A stretch of 23,688 nt of DNA from a virus, in IMG/VR virus record IMGVR_UViG_3300025168_000682, positions 1 to 23,688 of that record. One strand, given 5' to 3'. Positions 13,273 to 15,211 of the stretch are shown in pieces; the first letter of the stretch is position 1, and each line of letters starts with the position of its first letter. A program made the translations under genes and the position numbers. The notes under the pieces were generated by a model. The model had not been told where the DNA came from, did no database searches, and was given only the letters and a program-made list of their open reading frames with translations.

Positions 13273-13434
13273 ATGCACATTGCAAAATCTAACTTTGCTT
13301 ACGTAGGTAGAACTTATCATGTAGGTGATACCATCCCCGATGAAATCGCTAAAGAGCTACCAGAACATCTTTTAAAAGCTCCTGATGCTAAAACTGCAAC
13401 TAAAAAAACTGACACTCTTGAAGGAGACAAATAA
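13273..13434 (+). CDS. Small Lys-rich protein between tail terminator and tail tube genes, 53 aa
   Basis: ATG at 13273 follows AAGGAAA at a normal distance and ends with TAA at 13432-13434, sharing one base with the ATG of the tail tube gene. The protein starts MHIAKSNFAYVGRTYHVGDT and resembles the short gp-FI/FII-like small proteins some phages carry here: a mini beta motif (YVGRTYHVGDTIPDEIAKEL) followed by a basic tail rich in Lys and Thr. The function is unknown. Ribosome binding site, coupling and codon pattern make it a convincing gene. Confidence 0.75.
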   Translation: MHIAKSNFAYVGRTYHVGDTIPDEIAKELPEHLLKAPDAKTATKKTDTLEGDK

Positions 13435-14345
13435 TGGCATTCGCACAAGGTAGCCGTTCAAGTCTTGCGTTTATTGCTGAATCTACATTCGGTACTACTC
13501 CAAGCTCACCAACATTCGCCAAACTCCCTATCAACTCACACTCTTTGGACCTAACTAAAGATCGTGTTGAAGGAAACGAAATTCAAGCTGACCGTATGCC
13601 AAGAGTTGACCGTCATGGCAACAAACAAGCTGGCGGCTCTATTGAGGCTGATCTGCGTAAGGGTGACTTCGATGCGCTCTTTGAGAGTGCCTTTCAATCA
13701 GCTTATGCTACTAACACCCTTAAGGTAGGCACTACACCTAAATTCTTTACGATGGAAGATGCAGCTAATGACATTGCTCAGTTCCGTCTGTTTAAAGGTA
13801 TGGGCGTATCAACTATGTCTGTTTCGATTGCACCTAACCAAATGGTTACTGGCTCGTTTGAGATGGTAGGTAAGAGCATGACACAGGCAGCAACCACAGG
13901 TTCTACTGGTGGTGCGCCAACAGCATCCTCTGCTAATCAACCTTTTGATAGTTACTCAGGTAGTATATTAGATGGTGGTTCAAGTATTGCTATAGTTACA
14001 TCTATTGACTTTAGTATAACTAACTCACTTGCCCCTACGTTTGTAGTTGGTTCAGATTCTGCTCAACAGTTAGAAATTGGTCGTGCAGTAGTTGAAGGTA
14101 CTATGACAGTATACTATCAAGACGCTACACTTATTAACAGGTTCTTGAATGAGACTGCATCAGCTATTACAGTATCTATAAATGATCCTACAGGTTCTAA
14201 TGCCTACACATTCACATTCCCAAATGTCAAGTACAATGGTGCTTCTGTCCCACTTCAGAACCCACAGTCACGTTTGATCACAATGCCATTCGTATCATTA
14301 TATGATGCAACTCTGAACACAAACTTACAACTTGTACGCTCTTAG
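13434..14345 (+). CDS. Major tail tube protein (Phage_tube_2-like)
   Basis: The 303-residue protein begins MAFAQGSRSSLAFIAESTFG, then TTPSSPTFAKLPINSHSLDL, followed by GNKQAGGSIEADLRKGDFD. These are typical of the Phage_tube_2 group, in which A-x2-E-x-T-F/Y-G-x2-P precedes a beta-barrel that hexamerises into the tube. The rest is beta-rich and includes a PNQMVTGSFEMVGKSM strand pair. AAGGAG lies 8 bases before ATG 13434. A strong RNA hairpin follows the stop. Position before the frameshifted chaperones and tape measure is canonical. Confidence 0.9.
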   Translation: MAFAQGSRSSLAFIAESTFGTTPSSPTFAKLPINSHSLDLTKDRVEGNEIQADRMPRVDRHGNKQAGGSIEADLRKGDFDALFESAFQSAYATNTLKVGTTPKFFTMEDAANDIAQFRLFKGMGVSTMSVSIAPNQMVTGSFEMVGKSMTQAATTGSTGGAPTASSANQPFDSYSGSILDGGSSIAIVTSIDFSITNSLAPTFVVGSDSAQQLEIGRAVVEGTMTVYYQDATLINRFLNETASAITVSINDPTGSNAYTFTFPNVKYNGASVPLQNPQSRLITMPFVSLYDATLNTNLQLVRS

Positions 14346-14350
14346 TAATT

Positions 14351-14450
14351 CCTAGCTAGGATGGGGAGGCATTAGTGTCGGGTCTAGTGCTTCCCCACTT
14401 TAAATCAACCCGACAAACCCCGACACTCATCATAGAAAAGGAAACCCGAT
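14351..14450 (+). promoter_or_regulatory. Structured leader with a 14-bp hairpin and pseudoknot potential
   Basis: TGGGGAGGCATTAG (14362-14375) pairs with CTAGTGCTTCCCCA (14384-14397) with only two G-U pairs, leaving the loop TGTCGGGT (14376-14383). ACCCGACA (14408-14415) is perfectly complementary to that loop, and CCCGACAC (14419-14426) is complementary to 14375-14382. A palindrome, CCTAGCTAGG, lies at 14351-14360. No T-run follows the hairpin. The element lies between the abundant tail tube message and the tail chaperone gene and could stop, process or regulate the transcript. Confidence 0.65.
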
Positions 14451-14864
14451 ATGGACCTGATGAACATTGGTACTACTAAAGAAACTACTGACGTAATTCT
14501 GTACAACCCAGTTAATTCTGAAATCCTCACAAACGAAGATGGGTCAGAGATGACTATAACCGTACATGGGCCTTACTCAAAGAAGTACAAGGTTATTTCC
14601 CATGCTCAACAAAATAGAAGGTTGATGAAGGCTCAACGTACTGGTGGTAAGTTAAACCTTACTGCTGAAGAGATTGAAGCATCAGCATTAGACCTCTTAG
14701 TTAAGTGTGTAGACGGTTGGAATATTACTCTTGGTGGTAAGAAGCCTGACTGTAAAGAAGCTAAAGTCAGAGAAGTCTTCGATACCCTACCTTGGGTACG
14801 TGAGCAGGTAGACGCTGCTCTTGGAGATGCTCAGGCTTTTTTGGACAAGTCAGAGGCGAGTTAG
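14451..14864 (+). CDS. Tail assembly chaperone (gpG-like)
   Basis: The 137-residue product would bind the tape measure protein and recruit tail tube subunits, then leave the mature tail. The N-terminal part is beta-rich (TTDVILYNPVNSEILTNEDG), followed by a helical domain around residues 45-122 with GGKKPDCKEAKVREVF, then LPWVREQVDAAL, as in HK97 gp14-like chaperones. GGAAA lies upstream of ATG 14451. The last codons contain a slippery heptamer (T TTT TTG, 14837-14843), and a -1 shift there joins this frame to the next one. Position between tail tube and tape measure fits. Confidence 0.85.
   Translation: MDLMNIGTTKETTDVILYNPVNSEILTNEDGSEMTITVHGPYSKKYKVISHAQQNRRLMKAQRTGGKLNLTAEEIEASALDLLVKCVDGWNITLGGKKPDCKEAKVREVFDTLPWVREQVDAALGDAQAFLDKSEAS
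14837..14843 (+). promoter_or_regulatory. Programmed -1 ribosomal frameshift site T TTT TTG
   Basis: In the chaperone frame the codons read GCT TTT TTG, so the heptamer fits X XXY YYZ. A -1 slip here continues through GGA CAA GTC without a stop into the frame that ends at 15211. A perfect hairpin (GAGTAC 14867-14872, GTACTC 14878-14883) lies 23 bases downstream and might help pausing, although it is farther away than usual. Confidence 0.85.
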
Positions 14865-15211
14865 AAGAGTACGCTGAGTACTCCTTTAAGATGGGTCGTA
14901 AAGTTCAAGGTAAGACAACTGAACAAGATCATCTCGCCCAAGTAGCAAAACAGTTAGGAAAGACCTTAAGTGATATTGAAGAATCTAATTCACAGGCACT
15001 CTTTCCTGACGTTGCAGCACATTTATGGGCCACCTTCCTTGAGTTACACGATGGTAGAACTTATGGGATGAGTGGCCCTAATCCTATCTCATACGATATA
15101 ATATCTGGTTGGTCTACTATAACTGGTGTTGATTTATCACCGTGGGAACTAAGCACTATAAAGTCTCTGGATAATCTCTGGATTAAGAACGTAAGTGAGG
15201 AAAGTAGCTAA
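14843..15211 (+). CDS. Frameshift extension of the tail assembly chaperone (gpGT-like)
   Basis: After a -1 shift at 14837-14843 translation continues for 122 residues (GQVRGELEEYAEYSFKMGRK and onward), giving a fusion of about 253 residues with the gpG-like part. In lambda the T part of gpGT binds the tail tube protein while the G part binds the tape measure. The extension has helices and ends in NLWIKNVSEESS. An internal ATG at 14891 has no good ribosome binding site, although TTTAAGATG lies there, so independent translation is less likely. The stop overlaps the tape measure start by one base. Confidence 0.82.
   Translation, partial: GQVRGELEEYAEYSFKMGRKVQGKTTEQDHLAQVAKQLGKTLSDIEESNSQALFPDVAAHLWATFLELHDGRTYGMSGPNPISYDIISGWSTITGVDLSPWELSTIKSLDNLWIKNVSEESS

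Follow-up and report, generated by a model that had tools for sequence, protein, structure and literature searches.

A conserved RNA leader with an invariant hairpin loop complementary to repeats at the start of a phage tail assembly chaperone gene

The tail assembly chaperone gene of this phage is preceded by an RNA element, real and conserved as judged by sequence comparison, in which the invariant loop of a long hairpin is complementary to a short word repeated several times downstream, the final copy lying against the start codon. We infer that pairing between the loop and these sites takes place and represses translation, and give about even chances to a reading in which the element is a cis-acting leader controlling chaperone initiation, with the proximal pseudoknot as the open state and pairing at the ribosome binding site (RBS) as the closed one. 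The leader suggests that protein production is controlled here by an undescribed means.

The element is located in the window, the whole stretch of 23,688 nucleotides analysed here (Table 1), against which all coordinates in the initial annotation check out. The gene order is tail tube, chaperone and tape measure, and a TTTTTTG slippery site (window positions 14838–14900, by sequence reading) joins the 137-residue chaperone in the −1 frame to the ORF at 14891–15211 as the GT product; chaperone, slippery site, next frame and tape measure gene together thus constitute a G/GT arrangement. The downstream gene had been taken for a tail assembly chaperone, and both the PHROG 313 match and the TTTTTTG ahead of the following frame bear this out; there are 126 close relatives of the protein in viral contigs. 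We also note an unlisted small ORF of about 53 codons (MHIAKSNFAYVGRTYHVGD..., window 13273–13433) between the genes for the tail terminator and the tail tube; the region upstream of the tail tube gene contains this ORF and no structure comparable to the leader was found there.

Table 1. Features of the chaperone leader and flanking genes (window positions).
Feature	Position	Strand	Remarks
Tail tube gene	13434..14345	+	Upstream neighbour; Pfam Phage_tube_2, E 2e-51
P1, TCCT-AGCT-AGGA	14350..14361	+	Small hairpin just 3' of the tail-tube stop codon
P2, 14-bp hairpin with 8-nt loop	14362..14397	+	Sequence pairing, folding and covariation
P2 loop, TGTCGGGT	14376..14383	+	Core GTCGGGT; no substitutions in 75 leaders
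Linker, probably single-stranded	14398..14437	+	Nearly G-free outside the repeats; base composition of 158 linkers
Site 1, ACCCGACA	14408..14415	+	Exact complement of the P2 loop; putative pseudoknot stem
Site 2, CCCCGACA	14418..14425	+	Middle site; adjoins the SD in many relatives (ACCCGAAAGGA)
Shine-Dalgarno (SD), AAGGA	14438..14442	+	Sequence
Site 3, ACCCGAT	14444..14450	+	Occupies the spacer between the SD and the ATG at 14451
Tail assembly chaperone G ORF, 137 aa	14451..14864	+	PHROG 313, E 8e-7
T extension via −1 frameshift at TTTTTTG	14838..15211	+	ORF 14891–15211; PHROG 8233 tail assembly chaperone, 2e-6

The 14-bp hairpin that was initially described, here P2, is real: its arms (14362–14375 and 14384–14397) form 12 Watson-Crick and two G-U pairs, and across relatives the stem varies between 12 and 14 bp and bears the loop (N)GUCGGGU. 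It does not read as a terminator, as no U-run follows it and no plus-strand terminator match lies there; a longer alternative helix in the window (14371–14382 with 14419–14430) was set aside because it does not recur in those leaders of relatives that were inspected. In some leaders (L073–L076, L235, L238 and L153) extra sequence, often with hairpin potential, is present between P2 and site 1, and site 1 is retained. P2 is adjoined on its 5' side by the smaller hairpin P1, absent from the initial annotation, which is conserved in nearly all relatives with compensatory forms of its arms (CCCT/AGGG, CCTCT/AGAGG, CCTGT/ACAGG and TCCC/GGGA), and which has a TTCG loop in L349–L351. Pair by pair, P1 does not reach significance in the G-test on the 75-leader alignment described below, and RNAfold favors another local pairing over P1 on the window's own sequence. 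A double-stranded DNA operator palindrome is a less likely interpretation of P1, since relatives swap the AGCT loop for TTCG and the arms vary with compensation.

The loop was said to match three downstream repeats, and each of these is found as described: ACCCGACA at site 1 is its exact complement, the shifted 8-mer CCCGACAC at 14419–14426 pairs with 14375–14382, and ACCCGA(T) sits between AAGGA and the chaperone ATG. In 20,000 dinucleotide-shuffled versions of the 100 bases, a hairpin stem of 12 bp or longer never came with two or more downstream 7-nt complements of its loop, and no second hairpin of at least 12 bp with loop-complement repeats is present elsewhere in the window on either strand. 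Relatives have two to four ACCCGAC-like copies downstream of P2, with a mean of 2.9 loop-complementary sites per leader in 159 unique leaders, vs 0.15 in shuffles.

Loci were collected by chaperone homology (80 viral loci), and many more by scanning with the motif, with profiles and for distant proteins; Roseobacter phage CRP-6, an isolate, is among those with the element. GTCGGGT lies no more than 260 nt upstream of the chaperone start in 316 of the 323 relatives with a usable start, a set fetched in part by the motif itself, the homology-fetched part behaving alike; of the seven exceptions, two are Rhizobium phages outside the group and the other five are contig ends or have rearranged or chimeric-looking upstream sequence. 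The 160 unique leaders contain 79 different P2 stems as parsed (two of these being 5-bp parse failures), a full-length P2 is parsed in 158 distinct leaders, and in all of the unique leaders the loop is an optional base followed by GTCGGGT. Every match of the motif scan with the full element is located upstream of a chaperone, and for the 27 motif matches lacking a chaperone no hairpin-repeat structure was seen among the matches listed. The element is kept across chaperones that are about 40% identical. Genome contigs yielded neither an encoded relative nor an element with the common P1 form, and there is thus no sign of a prophage version. Rfam 15 gave no matches in the window at gathering thresholds, and none at E values up to 5 in 14300–14500.

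Covariation was examined in 75 leaders differing in their P2 stems; aligned by MAFFT on sequence alone, these fold into P1 and a 13-bp P2. The test was a G-test with APC correction, with a null of columns re-simulated on a FastTree tree. P2 pairs take all of the top nine ranks among the column pairs of the whole alignment; six of them exceed every null value and two more are at E values of 0.03 and 0.05, so the stem covaries significantly. The loop and its sites are a different matter: there is not one substitution in the seven columns of the core loop, and one to three per column in the CCCGA of site 1. An invariant core loop offers no compensatory changes, so the pseudoknot is beyond proof by loop-site covariation. 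Most substitutions in the sites turn C into T and so preserve the pairing as G-U; C to T accounts for 67% of all changes at C, and this wobble bias, which does not rise above the general substitution spectrum, was rejected as proof of pairing. The shuffles, the conservation across such divergent chaperones and the stem covariation together leave chance or neutral hitch-hiking with a practically negligible probability, the conservation refuting it.

The arrangement found, a loop complementary to a downstream single strand and conserved across homologs, fits a putative H-type pseudoknot leader. Site 1 is ACCCGAC in 110 of 158 leaders and one base off in the remainder; predicted loop-site duplexes range from about −6 to −14 kcal/mol, and the strongest of them involves the P2-proximal site in 133 of 157 leaders. 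Of 157 leaders, 140 have their last site 0–2 nt from the start codon, and in nine more the site overlaps this codon. Outside the sites, G makes up 3.4% of the 158 P2-to-SD linkers vs 22.2% of the window, and 111 of these linkers lack G altogether; from this composition, the region looks as though it is kept single-stranded.

Under the cis reading, P1 and P2 would fold directly behind the tail-tube stop codon, and the GUCGGGU loop would pair with one downstream ACCCGAC copy. With the nearest copy it would form an H-type pseudoknot that leaves the ribosome site open; with site 3, the copy between SD and AUG, or with the SD-adjoining site 2 of many relatives, it would block the 30S subunit, so that loop-site pairing competes with ribosomes at the chaperone start. 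The remaining copies and the G-free linker may hold the region unstructured and tune this competition. Because the copy nearest P2 pairs best, the likely ground state is the pseudoknot, in which the ribosome site is open, and since the nearest site is thermodynamically favored, an off state or an equilibrium switch onto the RBS would require an active trigger; the balance might be shifted by ribosomes finishing the tail-tube gene, by a protein or by a second RNA. Site 3 has decayed in a few lineages that retain P2 (L338–L342 and L202/L213), and blocking at site 3 is therefore not universal.

The position of the element, always directly between the tail tube and chaperone genes, together with a stable stem that lacks a U-run, would also suit a role in mRNA processing or 3'-end protection, in which P1, P2 and a coaxial site 1 form a barrier to RNase III or to an exonuclease, uncoupling the chaperone message from the abundant message of the tail tube. 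This explains neither why repeats adjoin the SD and AUG nor why the same word recurs at the start of an SSB gene, as described below, and we consider it very unlikely.

When ten related genomes were scanned for an SD, CYYGA and ATG, the chaperone start came up, accompanied in several of them by a single early gene, gp18 of CRP-6 (L352:8094–8645), which lies between the DNA polymerase and exonuclease genes. CRP-6 gp18 and the corresponding proteins of L385–L464 are annotated only as hypothetical, and neither PHROGs nor Pfam detects them. An AlphaFold2 model of gp18 (pLDDT 75) matches the OB fold of the gp2.5/Enc34/DUF2815 proteins, with VIA-align Z scores of 9.7 against T7 gp2.5 (1je5; 133 residues, 3.0 Å), 9.4 against Enc34 SSB and 10.1 against 4klk, the next matches scoring 5.6; nearly all members of alignment A2 have the acidic C-terminal tail EDDELF, with an aromatic residue near its end. 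Because of this predicted fold and the EDDELF end, we conclude from the model that gp18 is a T7 gp2.5-like phage SSB.

The RBS word is present in 42 of 46 distinct SSB leaders, mostly as GCCGAAAGGAACTCGACATGG, and at the SSB SD or start codon in 15 of 19 protein clusters (below 85% identity) vs 2.0 expected; the SSB relatives found in Cobavirus podophages, CRP-9 and CRP-13, five phages that do not belong to the group, lack it. The word precedes the SD in some leaders and follows it in others, as if its exact position counted for less than occlusion of the RBS. In L353–L464, a −10 like element of the TATATAT type some 30 nt upstream of the SSB start suggests that the SSB gene has a promoter of its own and a very short leader. 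The chaperone element is also present on four of the longest SSB contigs checked, and the shorter ones may simply fail to reach it. A similar case can be made for the small gene gp22, at whose start the chaperone RBS word is probably present too: 12 homologs have AAAAGGATACCCGAMGA(A/G)TG with unvarying AGG ATA CCC codons, overlapping the end of gp21, and gp22 of CRP-6 (L352:9924–10157) probably starts 21 nt upstream of the annotated position, inside the gp21 end, with the RBS AAAAGGATACCCGAAGAATGG. The AAGGATACCCGAYGAATG matches are not coding only, as the homologs show the start of gp22 there as well, with fixed synonymous codons. Among 737 SD-preceded ORFs in seven genomes, only the chaperone, SSB and gp22 families recur with the RBS word. 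The proposal of a pseudoknot leader adjusting chaperone translation therefore stands in part: the conserved RNA, a geometry capable of pairing and a last repeat fused to the RBS agree with it, but with the word at SSB and probably gp22 a story confined to the chaperone is too narrow.

One way to account for the shared word is antisense action in trans, in which the GUCGGGU hairpin of the late, abundant tail-tube/chaperone RNA pairs with the early SSB and gp22 RBS and shuts these genes off late; the hairpin would be a 3'UTR-like module, and cleavage in the AU-rich linker could release its loop from the cis copies. It works without any unknown factor and is consistent with the enrichment of the loop-complementary word across SSB clusters, its placement on either side of the SD, the fixed gp22 codons, the lack of the word in the five outside phages and the co-occurrence of word and element on long contigs. 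However, the cis copies are predicted to bind the loop more tightly (ACCCGACA at −12.8 kcal/mol vs −8.2 for the SSB site ACTCGAC), the element is present but the SSB site missing in several genomes (L360, L361 and L364), and the gp22 word overlaps coding sequence. The cis repeats argue against pure trans action, and we regard this explanation as possible, if unlikely.

In T4, the gene 32 operator consists of an upstream pseudoknot, unstructured repeats and then the RBS, and serves autoregulation of the SSB (gp32). The T4 and RB69 operators share this order with our leader, and here as well the motif has a connection to an SSB gene; the differences are that here the structured leader is on the tail chaperone mRNA, that the mRNA of the SSB gene itself starts with a short leader containing the RBS word and no pseudoknot operator, and that the loop is complementary to several copies, a feature we know of in no gene 32 operator. 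The resemblance raises the alternative that a phage repressor, either the SSB itself or a RegA-like protein, binds ACYCGA at the SSB, gp22 and chaperone starts, the chaperone-leader pseudoknot nucleating binding that spreads along the unstructured repeats. An RBS word common to several operons and the predicted T7 gp2.5 fold of gp18 would fit, and T4 gp32, gp43 and RegA are precedents as phage translational repressors (PMC3014915). Yet the SSB leader itself lacks a hairpin with a GUCGGGU loop, the exact complementarity of the P2 loop to the word is left unexplained, and no candidate repressor was identified; a protein operator is, in our estimation, quite unlikely.

Other known systems resemble the cis leader in part. 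In the SAM-II and preQ1-II riboswitches a pseudoknot sequesters the RBS, and the likeness lies in a hairpin loop that pairs with downstream sequence near the SD; here the gene is a phage gene, the loop has a choice of two to four partners, Rfam gives no match, and no ligand pocket is known, nor do invariant residues outside the loop and sites suggest one. The −1 frameshift pseudoknots of tail chaperone genes belong to the same gene family, and a slippery site is present here too; our element, located in the 5' leader, precedes that site by about 390 nt and is therefore not a frameshift stimulator. Repression of the T4 RegA type is similar in that several phage mRNAs have a short RNA word at their AUG codons, whereas RegA sites are AU-rich and without clear sequence or structure conservation (PMC3014915), and here there is a conserved ACYCGAC word with an encoded RNA complement.

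Pseudoknots near ribosome sites are of a known kind, and literature searches turned up no description of this element. What is undescribed in the literature searched is the combination of an invariant loop with repeated copies of its complement, of which the last lies on the start codon and is shared with early genes. Dosage and frameshifting of tail assembly chaperones are classic problems; to our knowledge there is no known case of 5' RNA control of such a gene, and none was found in the literature searched.

The element spans many distinct marine phage contigs, including the isolate CRP-6, which belongs to a group reportedly ubiquitous in ocean waters (PMC6918029). Its design is one of a single loop with several targets, and it provides a candidate link between DNA replication, through the SSB, and tail assembly. 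It is conceivable, if doubtful, that the invariant loop of a late structural transcript pairs both in trans with the early SSB and gp22 ribosome sites and in cis with that of the chaperone; if true, one hairpin embedded in an mRNA would tie late gene expression to the shut-off of replication genes.
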